Shown: positions 6,160-32,616 of the stretch, in pieces | Layout: every line of letters starts with the position of its first letter | Position numbering within the stretch: the first letter of the stretch is position 1 | Assembly: GCA_016218375.1 (NCBI GenBank) | Contig: JACREG010000004.1 | Location: 1-36,718, forward strand | DNA length: 36,718 nt | Reading direction: 5' to 3' | Source: Gammaproteobacteria bacterium | GTDB lineage: Bacteria > Pseudomonadota > Gammaproteobacteria > Thiohalobacterales > Thiohalobacteraceae | Position numbers and translations under genes: made by a program | The notes under the pieces: model-generated | Databases searched by the model: none | The model's input: the letters and a program-made list of their open reading frames with translations, nothing else | What the model was told of the DNA's origin: nothing

Positions 6160-7254
6160 TCAGGCGCGGCTTTGGTTGACCGCCGGCGGGGCGGTCGCTT
6201 CGTCGCTGGCCACTTCGACGCGGTTGCGCCCAGCGTGCTTGGCGCGGTACAGGGCATCGTCGGCTGCGGCGAGCAAGGTGTCGGGATTGTCGCTGCCGCG
6301 TGGGTTCATGTTGGCGATGCCGATGCTCAGGGTGATCTTGTCGGACACCTTGGATGCGTCGTGGCGCACGTTCAGGCGCGATACGGCCTCGCGCATCTTT
6401 TCGGCGACGCGCAGCGTACCTTCCGTGTCGGTCTCGGGCAGAATGACCGCGAACTCCTCGCCGCCGTAGCGCGCGACGAGATCCGAGGGGCGGTGCACGA
6501 TGCGCGCCAGCGCCAGGGCCACGCTCTTGAGACAATCGTCGCCGGCCTGATGACCGTAGGTGTCGTTGAACAGCTTGAAATAATCGATGTCGATCATGAT
6601 CAGCGACAGCTCGGCGCAGTTGCGCAGGGCACGCTGCCATTCCTGTTCGAGCGTCTTGTCGAACTGACGGCGATTGGAAATACCGGTGAGTCCATCCAGC
6701 GACGACAGGCGTTGCAGTTCGCGGTTGCTTTCCTCCAACTGGGCGTTGCTGGTTTCCAGTTGGTTTTGCAGATCGCGCAGCGCTTGGTAGGCGGCATCGC
6801 GTTCCAATTGCGCCAGATAGCTGCGGGAGTGAGCGCGGATACGCGCGACCAGCTCGACCTTGTCGGGCAGTTTGACCAGGTAATCGTTGGCGCCGTTGTG
6901 GAAGGCCTCGCTCTTGATGGCCGGGTCGTCCTTGGTCGACAGCACGATGATCGGCACGTCGCGGGTCGCTGGATTGGTGCGGTAGAAACGCACCAGCATC
7001 ATGCCATCGACTTCCGGCATGACCAGATCCTGCAAGATGGTCGTTGCCTTGATGGTGATGGCGGTTTGAATGGCCTCGCGCGGATCGGCGCAATAATGAA
7101 AGTCGATATCCGTCTCGTCGACCAGCATGCGCCGAATGCCCTCGGCGACCATGGCCTGGTCGTCGACCAGCAGCACCACGGCGCGGCGTTTGGGCATGGC
7201 GGTATCGCTCTGTTGGTCTTTGCGGGTCTCGTTCATCTGCGAAATCCGAATCAC
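6160..7254 (-). CDS. wspR: Response regulator with GGDEF output (diguanylate cyclase), WspR-like
   Basis: Receiver domain ([17 protein letters not shown]...[15 protein letters not shown]...LSTKDD), coiled coil, GGDEF (RYGGEEF) with I-site RPSD five residues upstream. Last gene of the Wsp-ordered operon. Confidence 0.92.
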
Positions 7255-8300
7255 TACGCCGTTAACGGCCGACGCAGGGATTTCAGTAGGGCCGGTCCGA
7301 TGGCATCAAGTCCCAGGATATCGACCGCGGCGCCCAATTCTGCAGCCGCCTTGGGCATGCCGTAAATGGCGCTGCTGGCCTGATCCTGGGCGATGGTGTG
7401 GGCGCCGGCCTGGCGCAGGCTGAGCAGGCCGGTGCCGCCGTCCCGGCCCATGCCGGTCAGCAGAACGCCCACCGAATGGCCGCGCCAGTAGCGCGCCATG
7501 CTCTCGAAGAACACATTGACCGACGGGCGGTAGGCGTAATCGGCCGGCTCCGGGGTGTAGTCCAGGCGGCCGTCCGTGGTGACGATCAGGTGATCTTCGC
7601 GGCCGGCGATCAGCACATGGCCAGGGCTGGGGCGGTCGCCCGGCTGCGCCAAACGCACCGACAAGGCCGTTTGTTCGTCCAGCCATTCCGCGAAGCTGTG
7701 GGCAAACTCTTTGTCCACATGCTGAATGACGATAATCGCCGCCGGCAGATCGGCCGGCAGCGGCGCCAACAGGGTTTTCAACGCGGCCGGCCCGCCGGTG
7801 GACGCGCCAATGGCGATCAGCGGCGGACAACGCCCGGGGACCATGCAGGGATTCGGCGGCTCCGGCGTTACCGGCGGCGCGCTGCGTTTCGGCGCTTGGA
7901 TCAGGCGTCCGACCATGTCGATCTTGTGCAACAGGGCGGCGTTGCCGGCACCGCTGCCGTCCATGCCGAGGATCGGCGTGTTGATCGCATCCAAGGCGCC
8001 CGCGCCCATGGCCTCGAAGACCTTGGCGGCGTTGCCGGCGACACTCGCGGTGACCACGACGATGGCGCACGGCGCCTTGGCCATGATCTGACGCGTGGCC
8101 TCCACGCCGTCCATGTTGGGCATGATGAGATCCATCAGGATGAGATCCGGACGATCCTCGGTGCTGCGGCGCACCGCTTCGGCGCCGTCTTCCGCGACCC
8201 AGGCGACGTGGTGCCGGCCGCTCTCGGCGATCACCCGACGCAGGCTCTCGGCGGCCAGTTTGGAATCGTTTACAACTGCAACACGCATAGCTGGGCTCAT
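7254..8300 (-). CDS. wspF: Chemotaxis-type protein-glutamate methylesterase CheB, WspF-like
   Basis: REC domain (LMDLIMPNMDGVEATRQIM) plus CheB methylesterase motifs (IGASTGGPAALKTLL; VIQHVDKEFAHSFAEWLDEQT; LLTGMGRDGGTGLLSLRQAG). Confidence 0.95.
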   Translation of the reverse strand: MSPAMRVAVVNDSKLAAESLRRVIAESGRHHVAWVAEDGAEAVRRSTEDRPDLILMDLIMPNMDGVEATRQIMAKAPCAIVVVTASVAGNAAKVFEAMGAGALDAINTPILGMDGSGAGNAALLHKIDMVGRLIQAPKRSAPPVTPEPPNPCMVPGRCPPLIAIGASTGGPAALKTLLAPLPADLPAAIIVIQHVDKEFAHSFAEWLDEQTALSVRLAQPGDRPSPGHVLIAGREDHLIVTTDGRLDYTPEPADYAYRPSVNVFFESMARYWRGHSVGVLLTGMGRDGGTGLLSLRQAGAHTIAQDQASSAIYGMPKAAAELGAAVDILGLDAIGPALLKSLRRPLTA

Positions 8301-8311
8301 TGCTTGTCGAC

Positions 8312-11041
8312 CTAGGCCTGACCGATCAGATCGGCGACGGCATCGAGCAGGGTTTCATCGTGAAAGCTGCCCTTGGTCAGATAATAATCGGCGCCGACTT
8401 CCAGCCCGCGCCTGCGGTCTTCGTCACGATCCTTGTAGGACACAATCATCACCGGCAGCGACTTCAACTGCGGGTCTTTCTTTATCAGGCCGACGAACTC
8501 GAAGCCGTTCATGCGCGGCATGTCGACGTCGCTGATGACCAAGTCGTATTCGCCGGTGCGCACGGCATTCCAGCCGTCCATGCCGTCCACCGCAACTTCC
8601 ACGTCGTAGCCGCGGTTGACCAGCATATTGCGTTCGACCTCGCGCACGGTGATGGAATCGTCCACCACCAGAATGCGTTTGGTGACTTTCTTTTTCGGTA
8701 TGTCGCCGTCGCGGCGGATTTTGTCAAGCCGGCCGCCGGCGATGAGGATGTTGATCGAGCGCAGCAGATCGTCGACATCGATAATCAGGCAGGGATCGCC
8801 GTTTTCCAGAATGGCTGCGGCGTTGATGTCCTTGACCTTGCCCAGTCGCGGATCGAGGCTTTGCACCACCAGATTGCGCTCGCCCATGAAGCGATCGACC
8901 ACCAGACCGTAGCGGTCGAGCCGTTCGCCCAGGACCACGATGCACACCTCTTCCGCCTCGGGCGGTTCGCCTTCCAGGCCCAGCACCTGATTGCCCGCGA
9001 TCAGCCCGATGTGTTGATTGATGAGCGTGAAATACTGACGGCCTTCCATGACCTCGATGGCATGGCGCGGCAGTTTGAGGGTGCGATGAATCTGCGCCAG
9101 CGGGAAGACGTAGGGCTCGCCGGCGATTTCCACCATCAGCGCGCGCATTACCGACAGCGTCAACGGCAGTTGCAAATGGAAACGCATGCCCTTGCCGGGT
9201 TGTGCGGTGGCGTGGACGATGCCGTGCATTTCCTGCACTACGCTGTGCACCACGTCCAGGCCCACGCCGCGACCGGAGATTTCGGTGACTTGTTCGCGGG
9301 TGGAAAAGCCGGGCAGGAACAGAAAATCCATCAGCTCCGCTTCGCTGAGATCGGCGGCCATTTCCTGTGAGACCAGTTTCCGCTGCACGATCTTGTGTCG
9401 CAGTCGGTCGAGTTCCATGCCGCGGCCGTCGTCTTCGACCACGATCGACAGCATGCCGGCGCTGTGCATCGCTTCCAGACGGATAGTGGCCTGTTCCGGT
9501 TTGCCGGCGGCCAGCCGGTCGGCGGGCATTTCGATGCCGTGATCGACGGCGTTGCGCAGCAGATGGTTGAGCGGCGCTTCGATTTTTTCCAGGATGTCGC
9601 GGTCGACTTGGGTGGCGAATCCGCGGATATCGAGATGCACGTGTTTGCCGAGCGTGCGCGCCAGATCGCGCACCATGCGCTGGAAGCCGTGCACGCCGTC
9701 GGCGAACGGCCGCATGCGGCTGGCGATGACCTCGCGGTTGAGGCGGCTGGCCAGGTTGTGACTGCGACGGTCGTACTCGTCGAGCTCGTTCAGCCGTTCG
9801 CCGAGCAGTTTCCGGCAATGCGCGGCCTTGTGCTGTGCCTCGCCGAGCAGACTGCGTGCGTATTCGTCGAGATGCGTGAGCTCGACGGCGTCGCGCAGTT
9901 TGTCCAGGAGGCTGATGAGTTCGGTGTGCCGATGTTTGAATTGCACCAGCGCGTCGGCGTAGGGGCGCAGCCAACGCGCCTCGACCTGGACTTCGCCGGC
10001 CAGACCCATGAGGCGATTCAGGCTTTCCGCGGAGACGCGGATGGCGCTGTCCAGATTCTGTTTCGCGGTGTTCGCTGCCGCCGTGTTAGCGGTGGGCGTC
10101 ACGAGTGTCGCAAGTGTCGGGGGCGCCGTTTCGGGTTGCGCTGCCGCGGCCTGTATGACGGGCGGCGGCGTGTTCGTGGGCAAGGTCGCGAGCGCTGCTT
10201 CCAGTGTATCGATGTCGGTGGCGTGCTGGGCGGCCCAGGCATCGATATCCGCCGCGTTGCCTATGCGGCCGAGCATGTCCACGCCGCGCAACAGCAGATC
10301 TACATGCGCCGCGCCGATCACCAGTTTGCCATGCTGCGCAGCGACCAAGCCGTCTTCCATGACATGCGCGATGCGCACGCCGGCGGCGATATCCACCATG
10401 CGCGCCGCGCCCTTGATCGAATGCGCGGCGCGCATCATGGCCTCCAGGCGGGCCGCATCGCTCGGGTTCTGTTCCAGTTCCAGCAGCCCGTCCGCCAGCA
10501 GCCGGGTCTGACTATCGACCTCGATGCGGAACAGATCCAGCATGGTCGAGTCGCGGACGGTTTTTGGCGCGGTCGCCGCGGCCGGTGTCTGTATCGATGC
10601 CGGGATCGATGCCGGGGCGGTCGCGGACGGTGTCGCTGCCACATCCGGTGTGCCGGCGTGTGCGGCGCTCATCGTCTGTAACAGCGCGTCGAGTTCTTGC
10701 GCGTGAGTCTGCGCCCAATCGGGCTGATCGGCGCCCTGGGCGATGCGTTTGAGCATGTCCACGCCGGTCAGCAGCACGTCGATGTGCGCGGGCGTCAGGG
10801 TCAGGCGTCCTTGCTGTGCGGCGACGAACAGATCTTCCAACACATGCGCGATGCGCACGGCGGATTCCACACTCACCATGCGACCGGCGCCTTTGATCGA
10901 GTGCGCGGCGCGCATCAGTGCTTCCAGCGCGACGGCATCGTTCGGCCGCGTTTCCAAGGCCAGCAAATGCTCGCTGAGTTGCGCGGCCTGGGTCTCGACC
11001 TCGCTGCGGAACAGATCCAACATGGAAAATTCGCCGCTCAT
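8312..11041 (-). CDS. wspE: Hybrid CheA-type histidine kinase with two Hpt domains and C-terminal receiver, WspE-like
   Basis: Start at internal ATG (MSGEFSMLDLFRSEVETQ). Two AHSIKG Hpt motifs, HATPase boxes (NHLLRNAVDHGIEMP; VEDDGRGMELDRLR; GRGVGLDVV), CheW-like regulatory domain, REC (RILVVDDSITVREVERNMLV...VISDVDMPRMNGFEFV). Confidence 0.94.
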   Translation of the reverse strand: MSGEFSMLDLFRSEVETQAAQLSEHLLALETRPNDAVALEALMRAAHSIKGAGRMVSVESAVRIAHVLEDLFVAAQQGRLTLTPAHIDVLLTGVDMLKRIAQGADQPDWAQTHAQELDALLQTMSAAHAGTPDVAATPSATAPASIPASIQTPAAATAPKTVRDSTMLDLFRIEVDSQTRLLADGLLELEQNPSDAARLEAMMRAAHSIKGAARMVDIAAGVRIAHVMEDGLVAAQHGKLVIGAAHVDLLLRGVDMLGRIGNAADIDAWAAQHATDIDTLEAALATLPTNTPPPVIQAAAAQPETAPPTLATLVTPTANTAAANTAKQNLDSAIRVSAESLNRLMGLAGEVQVEARWLRPYADALVQFKHRHTELISLLDKLRDAVELTHLDEYARSLLGEAQHKAAHCRKLLGERLNELDEYDRRSHNLASRLNREVIASRMRPFADGVHGFQRMVRDLARTLGKHVHLDIRGFATQVDRDILEKIEAPLNHLLRNAVDHGIEMPADRLAAGKPEQATIRLEAMHSAGMLSIVVEDDGRGMELDRLRHKIVQRKLVSQEMAADLSEAELMDFLFLPGFSTREQVTEISGRGVGLDVVHSVVQEMHGIVHATAQPGKGMRFHLQLPLTLSVMRALMVEIAGEPYVFPLAQIHRTLKLPRHAIEVMEGRQYFTLINQHIGLIAGNQVLGLEGEPPEAEEVCIVVLGERLDRYGLVVDRFMGERNLVVQSLDPRLGKVKDINAAAILENGDPCLIIDVDDLLRSINILIAGGRLDKIRRDGDIPKKKVTKRILVVDDSITVREVERNMLVNRGYDVEVAVDGMDGWNAVRTGEYDLVISDVDMPRMNGFEFVGLIKKDPQLKSLPVMIVSYKDRDEDRRRGLEVGADYYLTKGSFHDETLLDAVADLIGQA

Positions 11042-11733
11042 GTCAGACTCTTGTTCAAGGTGTGGAACAGCAATTCCGCGTCCAGGCTGGCGACATGGCG
11101 TTCGTTCCAGGCGAGCACACCCTTGGTGTAGGTGGCCTTGGATTTGCCGATGGTCGCCGGCGCCGGCTGCAATTCGTTCGGGTGATGGCGGTGCAGGCCA
11201 TGCACCTCGGTCACCGGAAACACATATTGATTGCCTTCGTGCGCGATCAGGATCATGCGGTCGGAAATGCCGACGCTGCCGAAGCGGCGTTCCTGGGCGC
11301 CCTTTTCCAGATCCAGCAGGCCGCCGAGCGATACGCAGATCTGCAATTCGCCGCGCATGTTGACCAAACCCTTGACGATGTTCTTGCGCGTGTGCGGCAA
11401 ACGCCGGACCGATTTGGCCGAGGTGATTTCGCGGACGATACGGCTGGGGATGGCCAGCCATTCGTCGCCGAGACGGAAGATGACAATGGATTCGCTGTTC
11501 TCCTGACTCTGCGGTTTGCGCATCGCCAGTACCTGCGTCCATTCCTCGCGGTAGCCCGCTGGCAATTCGCGTTGGAGGATCTGCCGGCCCGCCGCGGAAT
11601 AGCGTTCGCAATTGCGGCAATGGATGACCCGCTCCAGTTCCGGGCAGGCGTCCGCGCCACGCCGCCAGACACCGATGCGGTTCCAGCAGTCGTCGATGAC
11701 AATTGGGGCGATCGGGGCGACGGTATCGGTCAT
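11038..11733 (-). CDS. wspD: CheW-like adaptor with N-terminal Cys-containing extension, WspD-like
   Basis: CheW fold (IVIFRLGDEWLAIPSRIVREITSAKSVRRLPHTRKNIVKGLVNMRGELQICVSL...) with the N-terminal extension DDCWNRIGVWRRGADACPELERVIHCRNCERYSAAGRQIL. Overlaps wspC and wspE ends by 4 nt. Confidence 0.88.
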   Translation of the reverse strand: MTDTVAPIAPIVIDDCWNRIGVWRRGADACPELERVIHCRNCERYSAAGRQILQRELPAGYREEWTQVLAMRKPQSQENSESIVIFRLGDEWLAIPSRIVREITSAKSVRRLPHTRKNIVKGLVNMRGELQICVSLGGLLDLEKGAQERRFGSVGISDRMILIAHEGNQYVFPVTEVHGLHRHHPNELQPAPATIGKSKATYTKGVLAWNERHVASLDAELLFHTLNKSLT

Positions 11734-13025
11734 GCGTTATCGGCACGGTGTGCCGCCTCGTCCTGTCTGCGCCCATGCGAGCGTTGCGCGCGTTGTCGCA
11801 CCAGTTCCGCATTGGCCTGGTCGCCGCGCTGCGTCAACAGCACGGCCAGATGCGTCAGCGCCTCGTAGTGGCCCGGATCGAGATAGAGCGCCTTGCGCAA
11901 CAAGGCCTCGGCTTCCGCGGGTTCGCCGACCGCCTGGCGAACGATGGCCAACAGATAGAACGCCTGGGCATCGGGTCCGTGCTGTTGCAGATGTTTCTCG
12001 CACAGCGTCGCCGCTTCCACCATATGCCCTTCGTCGGCGAGGTGTGTGGCGGTGGCGAGATCGCCGCGTTTGTCGGGTGTACACGCGGGTATCTCCACCG
12101 GCGCCGGCGCGACATCGGCGAAGGGCCTGGATAGGGGTTTAGGCTTGGGCGGTTCGCTGGGCGCGTGTGCTTGCGTTGGCGCCGGCATGCGACGCCGCGT
12201 CGGCGGCGTTTGCGCCTCGTCGGTAACGCGCTTGCGTCCACGCACGAAGGCGAAGCTTTGCGGTTGTTCCAGTGAAACGAAATCGCGTCCCGCCAGCACA
12301 CCGGCCTCGGCGTGTCCCAGGAACAGCAGGCCGTGCGGGTGCAGCAGGCGTTCCAGCACTTGTAAGGCCTGCGCCTGGGTGGCACGGTCGAAATAGATGA
12401 GCAGGTTGCGGCAGAACACCACGTCGTAGAGCGGGCTCTCGCTCATGAAGCCCGGGGCGAGCAGGTTGGCATGATGGAAGCGCACCTGATTGCGGATATC
12501 GGGTTGCAGCAGATAGCCCTGTTCGGCACGCAGAAAATAACGGTCGCGGAAACCGAGGTCGTCGCCGCGAAAGGAATGTTCGCGATACAGACCGCCGCGG
12601 GCGCGGTGCAGATTAGGTTCGCTGATGTCGACGGCATCGACCTGGAAATCGCTAAACGTCAGGCCGGCGTCCAGCAACGCCATAACGATGGTGTAAGGCT
12701 CCTCGCCGGTGGAGCAGGGCACGCTCAAAATATGCAGCGGACCGGAACGTCCGGCCTGTTTCCAGGATTCTCTGGCGTAGCGTGCCAGGGCATTGAAGGG
12801 ATGCCGGTCGCGGAAGAACCAAGTCTCCGGGACGATCACCAGATCGATCAATTGTTGCAGTTCGGCCGGGCTGTCGCGCAGGCGCAGGAGATAGTCTCCC
12901 GGCTGCTCGATGTCGCGGTCGCGCATGCGTTGCTGCACGGCGCGGTGGATGGCCGAGCTGCCGATCGAGGCCGCGTTCAAGCCCATGGTCTCTTTCAGCA
13001 GTCGTTCGATGGCCGGCAGCGGCAT
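11730..13025 (-). CDS. wspC: CheR-type MCP methyltransferase with C-terminal TPR-like domain, WspC-like
   Basis: MPLPAIERLLKETMGLNAASIGSSAIHRAVQQRM...IVPETWFFRDRHPFNALARYA...ILSVPCSTGEEPYTIVMALLDAG...VVFCRNLLIYFDRATQAQALQVLERLL; TPR-like C-terminus. Start at internal ATG (CAT 13023-13025). Confidence 0.92.
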   Translation of the reverse strand: MPLPAIERLLKETMGLNAASIGSSAIHRAVQQRMRDRDIEQPGDYLLRLRDSPAELQQLIDLVIVPETWFFRDRHPFNALARYARESWKQAGRSGPLHILSVPCSTGEEPYTIVMALLDAGLTFSDFQVDAVDISEPNLHRARGGLYREHSFRGDDLGFRDRYFLRAEQGYLLQPDIRNQVRFHHANLLAPGFMSESPLYDVVFCRNLLIYFDRATQAQALQVLERLLHPHGLLFLGHAEAGVLAGRDFVSLEQPQSFAFVRGRKRVTDEAQTPPTRRRMPAPTQAHAPSEPPKPKPLSRPFADVAPAPVEIPACTPDKRGDLATATHLADEGHMVEAATLCEKHLQQHGPDAQAFYLLAIVRQAVGEPAEAEALLRKALYLDPGHYEALTHLAVLLTQRGDQANAELVRQRAQRSHGRRQDEAAHRADNA

Positions 13026-13480
13026 CAGGCGCACTCCGGAAACAGATTCTGGCGCACGGCATCGGGCAGCAGGTGTTCGATTTCCAGATGCTGTGCCGTG
13101 ATGTGGTCCGCTTTGACCAGTTGGCCGAGATAGGGCGCTTCGGGTACTTGCAGTCCGGCGCACTGAAAATCGGCGTCTTTGAATTTGACCGTTTCGGTGA
13201 CCTGTTCGGCGAGCAGTCCCAGAATGTGCGTGTGGGCCGCGCCGGCGGGATATTTGACCAGCACGATGCGCGTGGTGAGATGCGCCGCGCAATCCTGTCC
13301 GTGGGTGAGCTGGCAGAGATCGATCACCGGCACCCAGGTGCCTCGATAATCGAACAGCCCCGCGACGCAGGCGGGCGTGTGCGGCAGCGGCTTGAGCGTT
13401 ACCAGCGGCACGACTTCGACGATGCGCCGCGCCTCCAGTGCGTAACGCTCGGTCCCCATGCGCAGCAGCAGATACAGCAT
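13025..13480 (-). CDS. wspB: CheW-like adaptor, WspB-like
   Basis: MLYLLLRMGTERYALEARRIVEVVPLVTLKPLPHTPACVAGLFDYRGTWVPVIDLCQL... typical CheW; lies between the MCP and CheR genes. Confidence 0.88.
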   Translation of the reverse strand: MLYLLLRMGTERYALEARRIVEVVPLVTLKPLPHTPACVAGLFDYRGTWVPVIDLCQLTHGQDCAAHLTTRIVLVKYPAGAAHTHILGLLAEQVTETVKFKDADFQCAGLQVPEAPYLGQLVKADHITAQHLEIEHLLPDAVRQNLFPECA

Positions 13481-13492
13481 GACGCGATGACC

Positions 13493-15547
13493 TTAACCGT
13501 TGACCTTGAAGTGCGAGACGCCTTCCTGGAGCCGGCGCGCCGCCTCGTTGAGCTGGCCGATAGCACCGTTGGACTGGCGCAGCGACTCGGCGGTCTGCTG
13601 CGAGGACTCCGCCAGTTGGACCATCGCTTCGCTGATCTGTACCGCGCCCTTGGACTGCGACTGCATGCCTTCGTGCACTTCCTCGAAGCGCGGAATGAGA
13701 TGCTCGACCTGTTCGATGATATGCGCGAGCTGCGCACCGACGCGGCGCACGTCGTCCACACCCTGTTTCACCTCGGTGGAGAATTTTTCCATGCCCATCA
13801 CGCCGGCCGACACCGCCGATTGCATCTCTTTCACCATCTGCTCGATGTCCCAGGTGGCGACCGCGGTCTGATCGGCCAGACGGCGGATCTCGGTGGCGAC
13901 CACGGCGAAGCCGACGCCGTATTCGCCGGCCTTTTCCGCCTCGATGGCGGCGTTCAGCGATAGCAGGTTGGTCTGGTCGGAAACCCGGTTGATGGTGGTG
14001 ACGACGGTGTTGATGTTGCCGGCCTTCTCGGACAGCACGGCCAGTTTGGAACCGATGGCGGTAGTGGCCTCCATCATATTGCGCATCGTTTCTTCCATGC
14101 GCGTCAGCGAGGTGCGACCCTGGTTGGCACTCTCGGCGGTCTTGAAGGCGACATCGGTGACTTCGTGCATGGTGTTGACGAGTTCGCGCGAGGTCGCGGA
14201 GATTTGCGTCACCGTGGCGCGGATTTCGTTGGTGGTCGCGGCCTGTTCGCTGACCGTGGCCTCTTGCTGTTTGGCGGTGGCGGCGATTTCGGTGGCCGAC
14301 GAGGTCACTTGAATACCGGATTGCTGAATACGCGCGACCAGATTGTTGAGACTGTCGAGCATGCCCTGGATGCCGGAGGCGAGATCCGAAATCACATCGT
14401 TGTCGCGATACACCATGAGCTGGCCGGTGAGATCGCCGTGCGCGGCGACTTCGACCACTTCGCGAATCAATTCCACTTTGCCGGTGACGTCTTCGGCATG
14501 CTGACGTTCGCGATCGACAAGTTCACGGAGCTTGCCGGTCATGCGGTTGAACGCGATGGCCAGCGTACTGAACTCTTTTACGGCACGCGAGCGCACCGCG
14601 ACGCTCAGATCGCCCTCGGCGGCACGCTGCATATCCTGCATGAGATTGCCGACGGGGCGGAACAACAGCACATTGAACAGGCCGATGGCCAGCATCAGGC
14701 TGCCGCCGGTGAGAACCAGGAAGGCGATGGCGGTCACGCTCCGTACTTTGGTCATGTCGTCGTGCAATTCGGTGACGTTCTCCAGCACCTCCAACTCCAT
14801 GATGTCGGCACCACCGGCGTCGCGCAGCGGCTGGTGAACGAGCAGTTCGGTGGCGTCGGGCGCATGCCAGTCCCGCGATTGATAGAGATTGGAGGCGTCG
14901 CCGCCTTGGCTGGGGGTGTGGATACGGAACGGCAGTTTCAACGCGTCCTGGATGGTGCGCAGGTGCGTGAGCGGGGAGACGACGATTTCGAGATAGCCTA
15001 CGGGTTGTGCATCGCCGATAGGCAGCAGCATGGAGTAATACGGCGTGCCGTCGGCGGACCAGAGGGTCGTGAGCGGTTGCGTCGGGGCGCCCGCTTTGCG
15101 TGCCTGTTGCAGCAGCACCGGTGGCAGTTCGGAGGCAAGTCCGCCGATCCCCTGGCTGCTTTCCGCCACCAGATGGAATTCCAGATCGTAGCTGCGCAGC
15201 TTGGACAGCGCCAACTCGGCATTCACGTCTTTCTGCTGAAAGGGCTCGTTCAGTAGAGTGACGAAATCGGCCCAGCGTCCGGGGTCCTGTAAAGCGGCGT
15301 CGAAACCCGCCTGTATGTGCGCGCGGGATTGCAGGCGTTGTCCCAGCGCGGCAATGTGCGTGTCGAGCGTGTGCAGCGCTTCGCGATGGGCGACATCGAT
15401 CATGCGCGACAGCGTGCGGGCCTGGGCATTGAGCGCCGCCTCCTGGTAGCGCGCTCCCGAAAACAGGGTCAGCGCGATGGAGGAGAGGCCGAGCAGCAAG
15501 AGCACGCCGACGGTCAGTGCCTTGAGGGAAATTTTTTCAATTTTCAT
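13493..15547 (-). CDS. wspA: Methyl-accepting chemotaxis protein, WspA-like, with a large extracytoplasmic sensor and tandem HAMP-like segments
   Basis: Signalling tip [63 protein letters not shown]. Two predicted TM segments bracketing a ~250-aa sensor. Start at internal ATG ([20 protein letters not shown]). Confidence 0.92.
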
Positions 15548-15621
15548 AGTCGATCCATTCCGGGCAACAGGGGCGATCCGTGTGCCGCACCCAGGCAATA
15601 CCCTGGCGCGACGTCCTGGAT

Positions 15622-15682
15622 TAGCCAAAAAGCAAGTTCGGTGCCATGGCCGTTAGGCTAGGGCGTTACGTTGTTTTGGCTA
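15622..15682. repeat. 9-bp perfect inverted repeat flanking the sigma-54 promoter
   Basis: TAGCCAAAA (15622-15630) and TTTTGGCTA (15674-15682), reverse complements bracketing the -24/-12 element. Confidence 0.7.
15631..15646 (-). promoter_or_regulatory. Sigma-54 (RpoN) -24/-12 promoter upstream of the Wsp operon
   Basis: Minus strand reads TGGCAC-CGAAC-TTGCT, an exact match to TGGCAC-N5-TTGCW, ~85 nt upstream of the wspA ATG and correctly oriented. Confidence 0.88.
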
Positions 15683-15748
15683 GGATTTATACCGGTTGGC
15701 ACCGCGCCGTGGTGGCTGGTTGCCGGGTTCTTGGCGCGGGAGGGTGGC

Positions 15749-18322
15749 TTAGCTGGCGTGCAGGATGTCTTTCAACTTGAACAGGAGCTCCAGCGCCTGA
15801 CGGGGGCTGAGGTCGGCCGGCTCGATGCCTTCGAGGGCGTCGAGGATGGGGTGATCGGTTGGCGCCGCGAACAGGCCGAGCTGCCCGCTGTTGCTGGCGG
15901 GTGTGTGGGTGGCGGACTGGTTTTCCAATTCGCGCAGGCGTTGCCGGGCCTGATTCAACACCTCCTTGGGGATGCCGGCCAGCGCGGCGACGTGCAGGCC
16001 GTAGCTGCGGTCGGCCGGTCCTTCCTTGACCGCATGCAGGAACACGATGCGGTCGCCGTGCTCCATCGCATCCAGGTGCACGTTGGCGATGGACGGATAC
16101 AGCGCCGGCAGTTCGGTGAGTTCGAAGTAATGCGTGGCGAACAGTGTGAACGCCTGAATGCGTTTGGCCAGATCGGCGGCGCAGGCCCACGCCAGCGACA
16201 AACCATCGTAGGTGCTGGTGCCGCGGCCGATCTCGTCCATCAACACCAGACTGTGCTCGGTGGCGTTGTGCAGGATGTTGGCGGTCTCGGTCATTTCCAC
16301 CATGAAGGTCGAACGCCCGGTGGCGAGATCGTCCGACGCGCCGATGCGGGTAAAGATGCGGTCGATGGGACCGATGACCGCGCGCGCCGCCGGCACGAAA
16401 CTGCCGATGTGCGCGAGCAGCACAATCAGCGCGGTCTGGCGCATGTACGTGGATTTGCCGCCCATGTTCGGGCCGGTGATGACGAGCATGCGCCGTGCCT
16501 CGTCGAAGCGTACATCGTTGGGTACGAACGGCGTGTCCAGCACGTGCTCGACCACCGGATGCCGGCCGGCCTCGATCGACAGGCCGGGTTCGTCGTTCAG
16601 GTGCGGACGGCGCCAGTCGAGCGTGTCGGCGCGTTCGGCGAAGCAGGCCAGCACGTCGAGTTCGGCGACGGCCTCGGCGGCGGTTTGTAAGGGTGCGAGG
16701 AATTCGAGTAGCGCATCGAGCAACGCGTCGTAGAGCGCCTTCTCGCGTGCGAGTGCGCGTTCGCGCGCGGACAGCACCTTGTCCTCGAAGCGTTTCAATT
16801 CCGGCGTGATGTAGCGTTCCGCGCCTTTCAGTGTCTGGCGGCGCTGGAAATCGTCGGGCACGCGCGTTGCCTGGGCCTTGCCGACTTCGATATAGAAGCC
16901 GTGCACGCGGTTGTAACCGACCTTGAGCGTGGCGATGCCGGAGCGTTCGCGCTCGCGGATTTCCAGATCGACCAGGAACTGATCGGCGTTTTCGCTCAAG
17001 CTCCGCAGTTCGTCGAGTTCCGCGTCGTAACCGGTGGCGATCATGCCGCCGTCGCGGCTCAACACCGGCGGTTGTTCCACCAACGCGCGCTGTAACAGCG
17101 ACTGCGGTTGCGGATGCTCGCCGATGTCTCCGGCGACTTCGCGCAACAGCGGATCGTCGTATGCAGACAGCACGCGCTGCAAATGCGGCAGACGCGCCAG
17201 ACTGTCGCGCAGGCCCGAAAGATCGCGCGGTCGCGCGGATTTCAACGCCACGCGCGTCATCACCCGTTCCAGATCGCACAGTCCGCGCAGCACGCTATGC
17301 ACGGCCTCGAAACCGCGGTCGTTCTGCAAAGTCTCCACGCACTGGTGGCGCTTGCGCAAACGCGCGCGGCTGCGCAGCGGCCGGTTCAGCCAGCGCCGCA
17401 GCAGGCGACCACCCATCGCCGTCGCGGTGCTGTCGAGCACGCCGGCAAGGCTGTGTTCGACGCGCCCCGATTGCGCGTGATCGAGTTCCAGATTGCGCCG
17501 GCTGGCGGCGTCGAGAATGATGCTGTCCTCGCGCAGTTCCACGCGCAACCCGCGCAGATGCGGCAATGCCGCACGTTGCGTGTCCTTCACGTATTGCAGC
17601 AGCGCGGCGGCCGCACCGATGGCCAGCGGCAGGCTCTGACAACCGAAGCCGGTGAGATCGCGCGTGCCGAACTGCGCGCACAACTGACGCAGACCGCTGT
17701 CGGCCTCGTAATGCCAGGGCGGACGGCGCTTGCTGCCGGTGCGTTCGCTGATCGTTGCGGGAAATGTCGTGTCTTCGTTGAACAGCAGTTCGCTCGGGCG
17801 CAGCCGTTCCAGTTCGCTGTGCAGCGCCTCGACGCCATCGAGTTCCTGCACGCTGAAACGCCCGCTGCTGAGATCGAGCACCGCCAGACCGAAGCGCTCT
17901 CTCAGGCCGGTGCAGGCCGCGAGCAAGTTGTCGCGGCGCTCTTCGAGCAAGGATTCCTCGGTGACCGTGCCCGGTGTGACGATGCGCACCACTTGGCGTT
18001 CCACCGGCCCCTTGCTCGCCGCTGGATCGCCGATCTGCTCGCAGATCGCCACCGACTCGCCGAGCCGCACCAGCTTGGCCAGATATTGGTCGACTGCGTG
18101 TACCGGCACGCCCGCCATCGGAATCGGCTCGCCGGCCGATTGACCGCGCGCGGTGAGCGTGATGTCGAGCAACGGCGCCGCGCGTCGCGCGTCGCTGTAG
18201 AACAGCTCGTAGAAATCGCCCATGCGATAGAACAACAGGATATCCGGATGCTCGGCCTTGATGCGCAGATACTGCTGCATCATGGGCGTGTGCGGACTGG
18301 CTTCTGGGGTCGGCGTGGACAT
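15749..18322 (-). CDS. mutS: DNA mismatch repair protein MutS
   Basis: [34 protein letters not shown]...; Walker [38 protein letters not shown]; full length 857 aa. Confidence 0.98.
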
Positions 18323-18754: not shown

Positions 18755-20353
18755 TTGCCTTGGATGAATGTTATGGTTGCGGCGGATTCCTCAAGACAAG
18801 TTTGGCAGATGACGCTGGTCGGCTGGGCAGTGCTCTCATTGACAGCCCTGTCTATTGGCTTCGTGTCATGGGACGGTATTCAGTATCTGCTTCATCAATG
18901 GGAGAAGCCTGAATACGGCTATGCTTACATGCTGCCTGGGATAGTCGCTTTCCTGGTCTGGCAACGGAAAGATGAATTGGAGCGTATCCAGTTCAATGGC
19001 GATTGGCGTGGGTTAATGCTTTTTCTGCTGGGGTTGGCGATATTGTGGGGCGGTAAGCTATCCGCTGTGCATGCGATTATTCAGTATGGGTTGCTGCTGG
19101 CAATTCTTGGAGCGGTTTGGGCGTATGTGGGGCACCAGGGTTTTAAGAGGATTTTGATGCCTTTGACTATTCTTGTGCTCACTATCCCACTTCCTGGTTT
19201 TATCTATCAAAGCATATCTAACGACCTGCAATTGATCTCTTCCCGCTTAGGGGTGGCTGTCATCAGGCTTCTCAATATAAGCGTGAATCTCGAAGGTAAT
19301 GTTATTGACCTTGGCGCCTATAAACTCCAAGTTGTCGAAGCCTGTAATGGCTTACGGTATTTGTTTCCCCTTCTGACGCTTGGTTATGTGGCGGCCTACT
19401 TCTTCAAGGTGGAAGTGTGGAAGCGTGTATTGTTGTTTGCCTCGGCGGCACCAATCTCGGTGTTGATGAATAGTTTTCGTATTGGCGTAATCGGTATCCT
19501 TGTGGAATATTGGGGTGTATCGATGGCAGAGGGGTTTCTGCATGAATTCGAGGGCTGGTTTGTATTTATGGCTTGCCTTGGCGTGTTGTTGCTTGAGATG
19601 TGGGTGCTGACCAATATTGGCCGTGACTCGAGGCCGCTACAACAAGTTTTTGGTATCGAGTGGCCTCAGTCGACGCCAGTTGATGCTGTAGTAGCAAAAA
19701 GGACGATCCCTCTTCCGGCGTATGCCGGTTTGGCTATTGCCGTGATGATGGCTGTATTTGCGCTAGTAATTCCTGATCGTGAAGATGTTATTCCTAATCG
19801 TGAGAGCTTCAGTCAATTCCCATTGGTGCTGGGGCAGTGGCGTGGCAGGGACGATGTTTTGGAGCAGAGTGCGCTTGAGTCTCTCAATCTGGACGATTAT
19901 CTGCTGGCCGACTATCACAGTAGCGATACTGTGCCAAATGTTGGTGTATATGTAGCGTATTACGGAATTCAGCGGGCAGATAAGGTGCCTCATTCCCCCG
20001 CCGCTTGTTTGCCAGGTGGTGGTTGGTTGATAACCGATAGGAAGGTTTACCCGGTGAGCGGTATTGAGGTGAATGGGGAGCCTCTTCTGGTGAATAGATT
20101 TATCATCGAGCAACATGGGGTCCGCCAGTTGGTTTATTATTGGTTTCACCAGCGAGGTCGAGCCATACATAACGAATACACGGTTAAATGGTATCTTCTG
20201 CTCGACTCCGTAACGAAGAAGCGTTCTGATGGTTCTTTGGTGCGATTGACTACTAGAATATCGCCAGATGAGACCGCGGAAGCTGCGGATGCACGGCTTG
20301 CTTCGTTCGTGGGTGATATTGTTCCTGTGCTCAAAAAATATATCCCCGATTGA
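18755..20353 (+). CDS. Exosortase fused to EpsI domain (possibly XrtD / VPLPA-CTERM-type)
   Basis: Multi-TM N-terminal half with exosortase Cys (VVEACNGLRYLFPL), Arg (MNSFRIGVIGILV) and His (EGFLHEFEGW) motifs; C-terminal EpsI domain with KVPHSPAACLPGGGW. Alternative ATG starts at 18764 and 18773. Confidence 0.9.
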   Translation: MPWMNVMVAADSSRQVWQMTLVGWAVLSLTALSIGFVSWDGIQYLLHQWEKPEYGYAYMLPGIVAFLVWQRKDELERIQFNGDWRGLMLFLLGLAILWGGKLSAVHAIIQYGLLLAILGAVWAYVGHQGFKRILMPLTILVLTIPLPGFIYQSISNDLQLISSRLGVAVIRLLNISVNLEGNVIDLGAYKLQVVEACNGLRYLFPLLTLGYVAAYFFKVEVWKRVLLFASAAPISVLMNSFRIGVIGILVEYWGVSMAEGFLHEFEGWFVFMACLGVLLLEMWVLTNIGRDSRPLQQVFGIEWPQSTPVDAVVAKRTIPLPAYAGLAIAVMMAVFALVIPDREDVIPNRESFSQFPLVLGQWRGRDDVLEQSALESLNLDDYLLADYHSSDTVPNVGVYVAYYGIQRADKVPHSPAACLPGGGWLITDRKVYPVSGIEVNGEPLLVNRFIIEQHGVRQLVYYWFHQRGRAIHNEYTVKWYLLLDSVTKKRSDGSLVRLTTRISPDETAEAADARLASFVGDIVPVLKKYIPD

Positions 20354-20452: not shown

Positions 20453-22252
20453 TTAGTCGGGACGGCTGTCCTCGAAACTGAAGCGCTTCTCTCTGAACAA
20501 AGTCAGGCAGGCGTCGGCGACGACCGGGTCATAGTGGGTTCCCGTGCCGCGCTCGATTTCGTCGAGCGCGGACTGCATGCCGAGACTGGGGCGGTAGGGG
20601 CGGTGCGACGACATGGCTTCCACCACGTCGGCCACGGCGAGAATCCTTGCTTCCAGGATGATCTGGTCGCCGCGAATGCCTTCCGGATAGCCGGAGCCAT
20701 CCATGCGTTCATGATGCTGCAATATCATTTCGGCGACCGGCCAGGGAAATTCGACGTCGTGAACGATGTTGAAGCCGACTTCGCAATGGGTCTTGATGAG
20801 CTCGAACTCGGCCACGTTGATCCGTCCGGGCCGGTTCAGGAGTTCCGCCGGGACGTAGATCTTGCCGATATCGTGAATCAGAGCGCCAAAATGCAGGCCT
20901 TCCAGTATCGGTCGGTCCATGTCCATCTGTTGTCCTATCGCGGTCGCCAATTGCGCGACCCGTTGCTGATGCCCGGCCGTGTAGGGGTCGCGCGTTTCGA
21001 TGGTGCGTGAAATCGTGCCGATGGTTTCTTTGTACACTTTCAGCAGGCGCTGCTGATTGTCCTTGCGCTCGCTGATATTGCGGGCGATGGCAAGTATGAA
21101 TCTGCTGCCATGGATATTCACCGGATAGCTGCTTACTTCGATGGGCACGGTACCGCCATCCTTGCGGGTCAGTTGAAACTCGGCCGGACCGATGGGTTGA
21201 CGGAAACCGCGTTCCATCAGTTGCAGAGCCCGTGGCAGCGCATCGCTCGTCAGCAGCCCCGATTCCACAACGGTTTTGCCGAGCAGTTCGCTGCGCTTGC
21301 AGCCGACGATATCTTCGGCCGCCTTGTTGCCGTCGGCGAAGCGGCCCTGGTCGTTGATCAGGTAATAGGCATCCGGCGCATATTCGAACAGTACGCGCAG
21401 GCGGTCTTCGGAGGCTTCCAGCTCGGTAATCGCGCGGCGATATTCGGTGACATCCTCTCCTGAAGCCAGAATGCCCGTCGGCTTGCCCAGATCGTCTATG
21501 AGCGGCGTATTGTCCCAGACGATGGTGCGCCGCTCACCGTCGCGCGTGACGATGGTGTTTTCATGCCGCTGGGCGTGGTGCAGGGTGCCTGCGATCAGCT
21601 TGTCGAAAATCTGTGCGGCGAATTCGCGTTCGAATTCCGGGATGAACACCTCGAACCAGTTTTTGCCCAGGAGTTCCACTTCGGTATAGCCGAGGATTTC
21701 ACAGCCGCGCCGGTTGATCATGGTGATGCGTTTATCGAGTCCGATGGCAACGACGATGACGCCGGCCACTTCCAGACACTGGCGTACGCGCCGGTCGTCG
21801 TTGTCGGCGGAAGCGGATTTGCTCATGCGTTCCGTGATGTCGCGTGCTTCGCCGTACAACACCGTCGCTTTGCCGTCGGCATCGCGCGCAACGGTGCCGT
21901 GATCCTCGAACCAATACAACCGGGTGCGATCCTTCGAATAGATACGATACTCCAGCCGGTAGTTGTCCGCGGTCTCGGCGGCAGTTCGTAGCTCGCGTTT
22001 GACGCGTGCGCGGTCTTTGGGATGGATCTGCCGGAACAGAAATCCCGGCACGCCCTTCCATTCGGCGATCTGGAATCCCAGCAGGCCGGTCAGGGCAGGA
22101 CTGATGAAGAACGCCGAGAAATCGGCCGGGTCGATGCAATAGAGGATAGTCGTGAGCTGTTCCAACAGCGCATGGATATGTCGCTCGTCGCTGTTACGGT
22201 GCAGGACGGCATTATGCGATGCGGGTTTTTCCGGCAGTGTCTTGCGATCCAT
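20453..22252 (-). CDS. Multi-PAS sensor HD-GYP c-di-GMP phosphodiesterase
   Basis: Three PAS-like repeats, then HD-GYP: ETRDPYTAGHQQRVAQLATAIG...GALIHDIGKIYVPAELLNRPG...ILQHHERMDGSGYPEGIRGDQI. Confidence 0.95.
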   Translation of the reverse strand: MDRKTLPEKPASHNAVLHRNSDERHIHALLEQLTTILYCIDPADFSAFFISPALTGLLGFQIAEWKGVPGFLFRQIHPKDRARVKRELRTAAETADNYRLEYRIYSKDRTRLYWFEDHGTVARDADGKATVLYGEARDITERMSKSASADNDDRRVRQCLEVAGVIVVAIGLDKRITMINRRGCEILGYTEVELLGKNWFEVFIPEFEREFAAQIFDKLIAGTLHHAQRHENTIVTRDGERRTIVWDNTPLIDDLGKPTGILASGEDVTEYRRAITELEASEDRLRVLFEYAPDAYYLINDQGRFADGNKAAEDIVGCKRSELLGKTVVESGLLTSDALPRALQLMERGFRQPIGPAEFQLTRKDGGTVPIEVSSYPVNIHGSRFILAIARNISERKDNQQRLLKVYKETIGTISRTIETRDPYTAGHQQRVAQLATAIGQQMDMDRPILEGLHFGALIHDIGKIYVPAELLNRPGRINVAEFELIKTHCEVGFNIVHDVEFPWPVAEMILQHHERMDGSGYPEGIRGDQIILEARILAVADVVEAMSSHRPYRPSLGMQSALDEIERGTGTHYDPVVADACLTLFREKRFSFEDSRPD

Positions 22253-22263
22253 GTGCGACCCCT

Positions 22264-22306
22264 TCTACCCATTGTTCATGCCTGAACCTCCCTGGGTAGG
22301 GGTAGA
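22264..22306. repeat. Nested inverted repeats in the 5' leader of the HD-GYP gene
   Basis: TCTACCC (22264-22270) with GGGTAGA (22300-22306), an alternative GGGTAG at 22294-22299, and an inner GTTCA-TGCC-TGAAC (22274-22287). Confidence 0.5.
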
Positions 22307-22367
22307 TACTAGCGCTATCATGCCCGGACCGCCACCGTCACCGGCCACGTTGGCTTACTGCGCCGGG

Positions 22368-23252
22368 TTATTGCCCCCAAACCTGCACGCGATTGCGGCC
22401 GGCCTGTTTGGCGGCATAGAGTGCGCGATCCGCGCGATCGATGGATTCTTCGATACTGACAGCGGCTTCGAGCGGCGCGATGCCAAAGGACGCCGTGACC
22501 AGAATGGGCGTATCGCCATCGTGCGTCAGTACCTGGCCCGCAAGCCCCTCGCGAATGCGTTCCATCACGGCCTGCGCGGTTTGCAGGTCCGTATTGGGCA
22601 GCGAAATCAGAAATTCCTCGCCTCCGTAGCGGAATATCCGGTCATAGGGTCGAAGACAGGTTTTGACGTAACGCACCACCGCGGACAACACATGGTCGCC
22701 GATGATATGCCCATGACTGTCGTTGATATCCTTGAAGCGATCAAGGTCCAATATCGCGACCGAACATGCCTGGGCGGCTCGTTTTATCAGGGCATGTATC
22801 TGTCTGAGTGCCGCGAGCAGGCCGATACGGCTTTCCGCGCCCGTCAGCGGGTCGAGTTTGTACAGCGAATCCTCGATCTCGCCGATCAGCGAGTGCAACT
22901 GTAGGCGGAGTTTTTCCAGTGCATTGGCGAAACTGTCGTAATCGGCGGTCGCAACGCTGCCGGCATGCTCGAACGACAGCAGCAATCGCGCGGCAAGTGC
23001 GTGCATGTTTTTGTGTTCCATCTCCATGGCGGTGAATGCCGCGTGTTCCCGGACTATTTCCGGCGCGGCGGTGTAATACCACTGACCGAACCGGCAATGC
23101 AGGTGTGCATCGCCGGTTGTATCGCGCGGATCGCAGGGGAGCCGGCAGACCAGCGAGCGGATCAGATCTTTGTGCCACTGCTCGTGGTTGTAGAGTGCCT
23201 GCTTCAATTGCAACAGTGCGCCCAGCAGCTCTTCTTGTCGAATGAAAAACAT
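22368..23252 (-). CDS. Diguanylate cyclase with N-terminal zinc-binding-type CZB domain (DgcZ-like)
   Basis: CZB-like pattern HEQWHKDL...HLHCRFGQWYY...MEMEHKNMH; GGDEF with RYGGEEF and I-site RPYD five residues upstream. Confidence 0.87.
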   Translation of the reverse strand: MFFIRQEELLGALLQLKQALYNHEQWHKDLIRSLVCRLPCDPRDTTGDAHLHCRFGQWYYTAAPEIVREHAAFTAMEMEHKNMHALAARLLLSFEHAGSVATADYDSFANALEKLRLQLHSLIGEIEDSLYKLDPLTGAESRIGLLAALRQIHALIKRAAQACSVAILDLDRFKDINDSHGHIIGDHVLSAVVRYVKTCLRPYDRIFRYGGEEFLISLPNTDLQTAQAVMERIREGLAGQVLTHDGDTPILVTASFGIAPLEAAVSIEESIDRADRALYAAKQAGRNRVQVWGQ

Positions 23253-23262
23253 GGGTACCCCT

Positions 23263-26200
23263 TCATCGTGTTATGGACGGCGGTCCGGCCCGCACGAAGG
23301 CCTCGAATTGTTCGGCCGGCAGCGGCTTGCTGAAGTAATAGCCCTGCACTTCATTACATCCTTGTTCGCGCAGAAATGCCAGTTGTTCCGCGGTCTCGAC
23401 GCCTTCGGCGATGGTTTTCAGACCGAGGCTGTTCGCCAGGCCGATGATGGCGACGACGATGGCGCGGTCTTCCGCATCCGCGCCGATCTCGCGTACGAAC
23501 GACTGGTCTATCTTGAGTCGATGCACTTTGAAGCGCTTGAGATAACTCAGCGAGGAATAGCCGGTGCCGAAGTCGTCTATCGACATGCGGATGCCGCGTT
23601 CGTGCAAACGGTCCATCACCGCGATGGCCGCGGGCGCATCCTCCATTGCAACGCCTTCGGTCAGTTCCAGTTCCAGATAGTGCGGTGCCAGTGTGACTTC
23701 TTCGAGGATCTGCGTCACCAGCTCCGGCAGGTGCGGATGACGGAACTGCACGGCCGAGAGGTTCACCGCCATCGTCATCGGCGCGAGGCCGCCGTCCAGC
23801 CAGGTCTTCATCTGTCGCACCGCGCTGCGCAGCGCCCATTCACCGATTTGCAGGATCTGGCCGCTTTCTTCCGCAATCGGGATGAACACGGCCGGGGCGA
23901 CCATACCCAGCTCCGGATGCCGCCAGCGCAGCAGTGCTTCCACGCCGACGATGCTGCCGTCGTGCAAGGCTATTTGAGGTTGATAGTGCAACTGCAACTG
24001 GTCGCGTTCCAGCGCGCGGCGCAGGGCGTTTTCCATTTTCAGGTTGTGGGTCGAACGTGCCTGCATTTCCGCGGTAAAGAAGCGGTAGTTGTTGCGGCCG
24101 TCGTGCTTGGCGCGGTACATGGCGGCATCGGCGCATTTGGACAGCACTTCGAAATCCGTGCCATCGCCGGGATACAGGGCAATGCCGATGGAGAGCGTAA
24201 CGGTCAGTTCGTAATTTTCGATCTGGTACGACTGGGCGATGGTCGTCAGCAACTTCTCGGCCACATGCGCCGCGCCATCGGCGTCGGTGTTGGGCAGAAT
24301 CAGAATGAATTCGTCCCCGCCTTGACGCGAAACCGTGTCCACTTCACGCACCGCGGTTTTCAGCCGGAGTGCAACCGCGACCAGTAGTTCGTCGCCGATG
24401 CGGTGTCCAAGCGAATCGTTGACGTTCTTGAAGTGATCGAGATCGACGAACATGACGGTCAACTGCGTGCGGCTGCGCTGGGCGGTGCGAAGGTCGTGAC
24501 AGATACGGTCGTTGAGCAAGACCCGGTTCGGCAATCCCGTGAGCGGATCGAAATGCGCCAGCCGTTGGATGTGTTCCTGGGCCGCCTTGCGCTGGGTGAT
24601 ATCGTTCGAAATGCCGATATAGTGGGTTATCTCGCCATTGGTATCGAGTACCCGCATGATCGAGAGCAATTCCGGATACAGGCTGCCGTCCTTGCGGCGA
24701 TTCCATACCTCGCCTTGCCAATGGCCTTGCGTGGATATGGCTTCCCACATCGCTTTGTAGAACGTTGAGTCGTGGCGACCCGAAGACAGCAGGCGCGGAT
24801 TTCGTCCCAGAACCTCGGCTTCGCTGTAGCCGCTGATGGCCGTGAATGCCTGGTTGACCATGATGATGTTGCGTTGGGCATCGGTAATGAGGATGCCTTC
24901 GCCGCTTTGTTCGAACACTTTGGCGGCAAGGCTGACTTGGGCCTCGGCACGTTTACGCTCGGTAATGTCTTCTCCCGACGAGAGCACCCCGTTAATCCTG
25001 CCCGATTCGTCCCGCAAGATCGCGTTGTGCCAGGCAACGATACGCTCCTCGCCGCCGCGGGTCAGAATTGCGTTTTCCAGATACTCGACAGGTGCGATGT
25101 TGCCCTTTATCAGTTGGCTGAACGCTTCCCGGATGTCTTCGCGTATGCACTCGGGCAGGAAATTCTCGAACCAGTCCTGGCCGAGAATATCCGCCTCGGC
25201 GGCGCCCAGCATTTCGCAACCCTTGCGATTGACGAGTTGCACCCGGCCTTCCGAATCCAGCGCAACCAGCATCACGCCGGCGATATTCAGGTATTGCAGC
25301 GTCCGTTGTTGGGATTCCAACAGCGCGCGTTCCGCCTGGGTGCGCGCGGTGATGTCGCGGGCGATGCCCAGCACGCCGATGACCTTGCCGCCGTCGTTGA
25401 CCATGGGCGTCTTGATGGTTTCAAACAGCCCTTGACTGCCATCGTCGGCGAAGGTCAGCCATTCTTCGTTGAGGCTGGGTTTGCCGGCGGTCATGGCTAT
25501 GCGGTCGTGCTCGCGGAAGAAGTCCGCCAATTCCCGGTCGACAAAGTCGTAGTCGGTTTTGCCGACGATGTCGGCTTCGCTGGCGCCGTAGAGCCGTTCG
25601 AACATCGGATTGCAGCTCAGATAGACGCCGTTCGCGTCCTTCAGCCAGACCAGATCGGGGATGGCGTCGAGCGTGGCTTCCAGTTTGCGTTGCACGACCA
25701 GCATTTCGGCGGTGCGCTGGGCGATGCTCGCTTCGAGCACTTGTTTGTGCATCCGAAACGCGACAAAAAGTTTCGCCAGATAGCCCAACGTCAGGCTGAA
25801 AAGAAAACCCAGTGCCGCCTGAAGTGCGGGTTCGAGCATATGTCCCCAACCGTCGATCGGCGCGACACTCAATGTCCAGCTTACGTTGGGTACGTGCAGG
25901 GTCTGCTCTACGGGTTCGATCAGGGGAGCCGCTGTCGGCGCAGAGCGCGCGATAATCTGTTTTTGGCGGGTGTCCGGTTGAATGCGCCAGAGCTCATACG
26001 CCAATCCTTGTTCGCGCAGATGGGATAGATGCTCGGTATCCAGTCCCTCGGGCAGGCGCATCACGACAATAGTAAAACCCCAGAAAAAGGGCCGACCCTC
26101 GCTGTCGTCGAGAAACACCGGCAAGCGACCGACCACGCCCATTCCGCCCATCACCAATTTAAGCGGCCCTGCCAGGGTGAGTTTGCCGCTGTCCCGGGCA

Positions 26201-26625
26201 AGCAGGGACTCCTTGCGCAGTGTCGGAGTGTTCAGCAGATCCAGGCCGATGGCGATTTCGTTTCCGGGCAGCGGCGCGATATTCCGGACGACCCCGCCGG
26301 GCGCCAGCGCCAGTTCGGAGGCGCCCGGATAAAACGGCAGTATCTTGCGGGCGGTAGCGTCGAAGTCGTGAACGCTGCCGTTGCTCTGACGTACCAGGGC
26401 CGCCAGGGCATGAGCCGCGGAAAGCGCATGTTCGATGGTATGTTCGATGGTGTGGACGTGGTCGCTCGTCAGGTTGGCAATGCTCGCCCGCTTGTGCTCC
26501 AGGCGATGCTGCTCCAGTTGCCAGACGATCAATCCCGATAGCGCGGCGGCGAGCAGAAAGACGCCGGCTGCGACAATCGACGGTTGCAATGGGCGGCGGG
26601 TGTGTGGGGCTGGCATGGCGATCAT
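23263..26625 (-). CDS. CHASE-PAS-PAS-PAS-GGDEF-EAL dual-domain c-di-GMP enzyme
   Basis: N-terminal TM plus CHASE-like sensor (LPFYPGASELALAPGGVVRNIAPLPGNEIAIGLDLL...), several PAS domains, GGDEF (RQGGDEF, I-site REVD), EAL (VEALLRWRHP; ELELTEG; DDFGTGYSSLSYLKRF; KIDQSFV; IAEGVET). Start taken at MIAMPAPH; 26616 is an alternative. Confidence 0.93.
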   Translation of the reverse strand: MIAMPAPHTRRPLQPSIVAAGVFLLAAALSGLIVWQLEQHRLEHKRASIANLTSDHVHTIEHTIEHALSAAHALAALVRQSNGSVHDFDATARKILPFYPGASELALAPGGVVRNIAPLPGNEIAIGLDLLNTPTLRKESLLARDSGKLTLAGPLKLVMGGMGVVGRLPVFLDDSEGRPFFWGFTIVVMRLPEGLDTEHLSHLREQGLAYELWRIQPDTRQKQIIARSAPTAAPLIEPVEQTLHVPNVSWTLSVAPIDGWGHMLEPALQAALGFLFSLTLGYLAKLFVAFRMHKQVLEASIAQRTAEMLVVQRKLEATLDAIPDLVWLKDANGVYLSCNPMFERLYGASEADIVGKTDYDFVDRELADFFREHDRIAMTAGKPSLNEEWLTFADDGSQGLFETIKTPMVNDGGKVIGVLGIARDITARTQAERALLESQQRTLQYLNIAGVMLVALDSEGRVQLVNRKGCEMLGAAEADILGQDWFENFLPECIREDIREAFSQLIKGNIAPVEYLENAILTRGGEERIVAWHNAILRDESGRINGVLSSGEDITERKRAEAQVSLAAKVFEQSGEGILITDAQRNIIMVNQAFTAISGYSEAEVLGRNPRLLSSGRHDSTFYKAMWEAISTQGHWQGEVWNRRKDGSLYPELLSIMRVLDTNGEITHYIGISNDITQRKAAQEHIQRLAHFDPLTGLPNRVLLNDRICHDLRTAQRSRTQLTVMFVDLDHFKNVNDSLGHRIGDELLVAVALRLKTAVREVDTVSRQGGDEFILILPNTDADGAAHVAEKLLTTIAQSYQIENYELTVTLSIGIALYPGDGTDFEVLSKCADAAMYRAKHDGRNNYRFFTAEMQARSTHNLKMENALRRALERDQLQLHYQPQIALHDGSIVGVEALLRWRHPELGMVAPAVFIPIAEESGQILQIGEWALRSAVRQMKTWLDGGLAPMTMAVNLSAVQFRHPHLPELVTQILEEVTLAPHYLELELTEGVAMEDAPAAIAVMDRLHERGIRMSIDDFGTGYSSLSYLKRFKVHRLKIDQSFVREIGADAEDRAIVVAIIGLANSLGLKTIAEGVETAEQLAFLREQGCNEVQGYYFSKPLPAEQFEAFVRAGPPSITR

Positions 26626-26749
26626 CCTGTCGTCACGGTGGGGCACTCGACGATTCCTATGTTCCGCCGCATCCTGCATCGGCGGCGCGTGTGTTTCCGC
26701 GTAAGACAACTTCGACGGGTTGGATAATCCCCGCTCAATGGGAGCCACA

Positions 26750-30418: not shown

Positions 30419-30466
30419 CGTTCCCGCGCATCCCTCCCATACCGAACACGACAGGCGGTGGACGGC

Positions 30467-32614: not shown

Positions 32615-32616
32615 CG

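Follow-up and report, generated by a model that had tools for sequence, protein, structure and literature searches.

The complete wspABCDEFR operon in the analyzed stretch of DNA (36,718 nt, hereafter the window) is probably transcribed from a genuine, lineage-specific sigma-54 (RpoN) promoter at positions 15646-15631, a reading to which we give a probability of about 0.84. The promoter element, TGGCACCGAACTTGCT, assigned on its exact consensus match and its conservation within the clade, is a 16-mer on the minus strand (15631..15646), with the GG dinucleotide at 15645/15644 and the GC at 15633/15632, and nothing else in the 36.7 kb window matches TGGCACN5TTGCW exactly. It is placed in the 200-nt gap between mutS (15749..18322, minus strand) and wspA; its start precedes the wspA ATG (15547) by 99 nt and its 3' end by 83 nt, in agreement with the initial annotation, which had reported an exact minus-strand -24/-12 match about 85 nt before wspA. 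Promoter activity is predicted, and the usual spacing to the -12 element would put the start site near 15620, which would give the wsp mRNA a 5' leader of about 73 nt (15548..15620, minus strand). A crude scan of 15450-15850, made with no RpoS model, found no sigma-70-like site, and a search for intrinsic terminators from mutS to wspA, leader included, gave none.

The operon described downstream of the element was recovered in full, with all seven genes in order on the minus strand, an order retained in relatives. It comprises wspA (13493..15547), a methyl-accepting chemotaxis-type receptor with HAMP and MCPsignal domains; wspB (13025..13480), a CheW protein; wspC (11730..13043), a CheR methyltransferase with a C-terminal TPR; wspD (11038..11733), CheW-like; wspE (8312..11050), a CheA hybrid with two Hpt, HATPase, CheW and receiver domains; wspF (7254..8300), a CheB methylesterase scoring above the NF009206 cut-off; and wspR (6160..7254), a receiver-GGDEF diguanylate cyclase (Pfam REC and GGDEF) with a GGEEF motif and an upstream RxxD. 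An absence of wspD was considered and rejected: the gene sits in another frame (11038-11733), masked in the ORF list by a longer wrong-frame ORF. Co-transcription presumably extends through wspR, and the system is predicted to sense surface contact and to increase c-di-GMP.

Several other genes were observed around the operon. An AddB-like PD-(D/E)XK protein is encoded after wspR (2651-5590, minus strand), with an addB homologue in the same place in G001, G003, G006 and L045 (from G010). On the other side of mutS, 18755-20353 (plus strand) encodes an exosortase (EpsH) fused to a DUF3485/EpsI domain, a PEP-CTERM protein-sorting part located 3 kb from wspA, and 20453-26748 (minus strand) holds a run of c-di-GMP-type genes (PAS-HD, HD-GYP-like; CZB-GGDEF; and CHASE-PAS-GGDEF-EAL). 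Two ORFs of 1175 and 519 aa (29108-32635 and 32689-34248, both on the minus strand) had no Pfam match and may be wrong-strand ORFs opposite a plus-strand frame at 30223-35031.

A consensus match inside a single genome is, taken alone, not decisive. When up to two mismatches to TGGCACN5TTGCW were allowed, the window contained 21 matches against 20.4 expected, which is chance level, while exact matches in the whole source genome (G000) numbered 10 versus 3 for a reversed control pattern. The stricter pattern TGGCACN5TTGCT gave 22 exact matches over three genomes, compared with four for the reversed control, and the genes behind them were mostly of the classical sigma-54 type (nifH, flgB, fliK and fliL, along with genes for an ANTAR-type regulator, a binding protein of the NMT1/NrtA type and a Gcw_chp protein); in G004 and G006, exact matches also preceded genes for proteins with PEP-CTERM-like C-termini. 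Given this excess over the control and the mostly textbook sigma-54 genes behind the matches, exact matches in this lineage are usually real promoters. Dinucleotide shuffles of the region of about 415 nt around each of nine conserved sites produced a site with intact GG and GC and no more than one mismatch in 0.1-0.85% of cases and an exact site in at most 0.05%, indicating that a chance origin of the wspA site is very unlikely.

Conservation in relatives, a check named in the initial annotation, was found throughout one WspA clade of environmental Gammaproteobacteria: 11/11 testable members carried the element ahead of wspA, either perfectly or with a single mismatch that spared GG and GC. 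This clade consists of the order of the window (seven readable upstream regions) and a sister family (four), the latter including uncultured Thiogranum. The site was directed into wspA in every member, usually 68-129 nt from its start (full range 45-316 nt). Within the order these distances were 99 nt in G000 and G001, 95 nt in G002, 94 nt in G003, 256 nt in G008, 316 nt in G004 and, depending on the start codon, 45 or 63 nt in G006; in the sister family they were 129 nt in L047 (with the same upstream sequence as G317), 79 nt in L046 and L151, and 68 nt in L150. One-mismatch variants, TGGCAT or TGGCAA, occurred in some relatives. Upstream regions cut off by contig ends, those of L033 (from G010) and L048, were left out of the 11.

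Outside the clade the site was absent. Eighty loci were taken from genome records, 52 of which combined ordered wspA, cheB and wspR genes with 350 nt or more of upstream sequence; the only one with the site was L047, a clade member, leaving 0/51 among the other complete wsp operons. Two one-mismatch matches were not counted, one in L068, where no wsp genes lay beside the match in the stretch examined, and one in L168, where the match fell at an ORF start. When the signalling part of WspA was placed in a tree by maximum likelihood, all 11 site-bearing operons fell in one 100/100 clade, in which the only members lacking a site call were L033 and L048, with their contig ends. The mutS-wsp order is retained in the clade. 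A single gain at the clade base, with no loss seen, would be the simplest history; the nearest outgroup, L049, is truncated upstream, so that the gain cannot be dated more closely. Two corrections apply: the source genome is not a pseudomonad, and the sigma-54 site is limited to one clade rather than belonging to wsp generally. The promoter reading itself is supported.

The core of the element has been kept while its surroundings drifted. A 20-bp core was 19/20 identical in the pairs G000/G002, G004/G008 and L046/L151, a figure biased upward because the sites were picked by consensus, a bias from which the contrast with the other wsp operons is free. Identity over the 95 nt upstream was close to that of shuffled sequences in the same pairs (0.59 vs 0.63, 0.67 vs 0.66 and 0.67 vs 0.64, respectively), and the leader was still partly similar in G000/G002 and L046/L151. 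In G004 and G008 an insertion separates the promoter from wspA, with the site retained at 316 and 256 nt, and the spacing from mutS to the site is altered in G006 and L046, again with the site retained. The insert in G004 and G008 (L032 and L031, respectively) is repeat-like, of the CCCCGCGAAGGCGGGGATCC type, and lengthens the wsp leader. Judged from these alignments, a conserved core amid drifted flanks is the pattern of selection on a promoter.

The machinery for such a promoter is encoded in these genomes. The initial annotation had made its proposal depend on rpoN, which was found in the source genome and in all the surveyed genomes of the order (11/11), as a contig-end fragment in G000 and as a near full-length domain in the 10 relatives. 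G000 also carries 12 strong enhancer-binding-protein genes (PF00158, sigma-54-interacting AAA+), most with GAFTGA and including FleQ (PF06490) and NtrC. FleQ domain matches were obtained in 11/11 genomes of the order, and PrsR in 9/9 of the other, fuller genomes; in G000 (86% complete) and G001 (79% complete) no PrsR was found.

Under the proposed mechanism, RNA polymerase-sigma-54 would occupy the GG/GC element as a closed complex. Its opening would depend on ATP hydrolysis by an upstream-bound AAA+ enhancer-binding protein, with a probable binding position some 110-150 nt ahead of +1. Sigma-54 biology entails such an activator, and the conserved promoter thus implies that switching on wsp probably requires a dedicated activator protein; as the complex would remain closed until this protein acts, the Wsp diguanylate-cyclase pathway would be made only when the activator senses a second signal. 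An activator that responds to c-di-GMP, as the enhancer-binding protein FleQ does, seems rather unlikely; with such an activator, the Wsp product would feed back on wsp transcription via sigma-54, and surface sensing would be tied to the flagellar hierarchy in the clade.

Motif sampling for an upstream activator site yielded one candidate enhancer dyad, CGCCAAGAACCCGGCA (15721..15736, minus strand), located 90 nt upstream of the -24 element. In the mutS-linked members, a 16-nt CGCCRMGAAACCGKCA-like word was found 90-122 nt before the -24 element, with an information content of 13.7 bits compared with a null maximum of 10.9 (12 shuffled sets), and a related word was identical across 17 nt in G004/G008 amid diverged flanks. 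Genome-wide matches to the dyad CGMCRMGAAACCGKCA were about equal to the control, showing no enrichment elsewhere. The dyad is weak and its spacing would suit an enhancer, but it lies directly behind mutS, and it is only a candidate.

Known activator boxes gave no common answer. No match to FleQ, NtrC, NifA, GlrR, NorR, IHF or PrsR-like boxes upstream of wspA was common to the members, a perfect IHF match being present only in L047. PrsR was rejected as the activator: it was not found in the incomplete G000, and for the 17-nt PrsR motif, of which the TTTACA end alone was tested, G006 was the one member with an exact TTTACA 32-92 nt before the sigma-54 site. Sampling for non-palindromic motifs upstream did not exceed the null in the smaller sets, and the signal of the ten-sequence set (17.6 vs 16.5 bits) was not trusted, its words lying at scattered positions. 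A conserved palindrome-like word, AGTGACAAATTTCTGTCGTTA, was observed 223-290 nt before the sigma-54 site in L046, L150 and L151; it was rejected as a wsp element and probably belongs to a divergent gene, the likely start of one being close by in L151. Upstream of the flgB sigma-54 site, TTGCCGCCCGGCGGCGG and a second word, TTGCCGC, were common to three genomes (L206, L209 and L008) and likely mark a flagellar activator site for the order; such FleR-type words were also rejected as the wsp activator site, none being seen upstream of wspA.

Other explanations of the element were weighed against this promoter reading. The site could be real but secondary, with a sigma-70/RpoS-type promoter or read-through from mutS supplying most of the transcription. 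The wsp genes of P. putida, served by RpoS and several internal promoters (PMC11784136), offer a parallel, and mutS is a same-strand neighbour some 200 nt upstream with no intrinsic terminator found in between; against this, the crude scan of 15450-15850 revealed no sigma-70-like site, and upstream identity is at the shuffled level apart from the -24/-12 core and one dyad. We regard this arrangement as clearly unlikely.

A functionless match is considerably less probable still. A 16-mer consensus with 11 specified positions does have a few chance occurrences per genome, as illustrated by the three reversed-control matches in G000, but chance would hardly place it in 11/11 clade members and in 0/51 other wsp operons, or let it outlast complete divergence of the upstream flank. 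The variable distance to the start codon among relatives (45-316 nt) might instead suggest that the site drives a short transcript, such as a small RNA or a leader, and not the operon; its direction into wspA in every member, usually from 68-129 nt away, and the lack of any terminator found in the leader make this scarcely credible. The reading of the element as the sigma-54 promoter of the operon is thus the one retained.

Wsp is the textbook surface-sensing c-di-GMP pathway, and work on it has dealt mostly with signalling and less with transcription. The gene order and architecture of the Pseudomonas wsp operon match those described here. The Pseudomonas system also comprises the same seven genes, encoding the same kinds of proteins (PMC11784136), whereas the clade studied here differs in its mutS-wsp-addB neighbourhood. 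In P. putida, RpoS binds to PwspA and activates it, and the operon has this one RpoS-driven main promoter plus five internal promoters (PMC11784136); in contrast, the conserved promoter of the present clade is of the sigma-54 type. No report of RpoN/sigma-54 control of wsp was found in the open-licence literature, and within that literature the remark of the initial annotation that the pseudomonad operon is not described as RpoN-dependent holds. The whole operon was apparently placed once under enhancer-dependent sigma-54 control and then kept there, suggesting that the step leading into biofilm formation can be brought under a second signal with tight gating. This idea lends itself to direct testing, since the clade includes complete genomes, with G004, G006 and G090 each in a single contig, and rpoN is present in every surveyed genome of the order.

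Sigma-54 control of matrix-related genes has a precedent, because the PEP-CTERM system is known to be controlled in this way (PMC1569441, PMC9850573). The PEP-CTERM/PrsK-PrsR regulon (Haft 2006, PMC1569441) likewise places a biofilm/exopolysaccharide-linked function under sigma-54, and the likeness extends to the presence of PrsR in the order and of an exosortase 3 kb from wspA; it differs in that wspA is not a PEP-CTERM gene and that the TTTACA-ended motif is absent upstream at the expected spacing, except for one TTTACA in G006. Sigma-54 flagellar promoters of the FleQ/FleR class show the same -24/-12 element at flgB, fliK and fliL in the same genomes, although the TTGCCGCCCGGCGGCGG words of flgB, found in three genomes, were not seen upstream of wspA. 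The case described here is one of variant regulation in a known system; no new system is involved.
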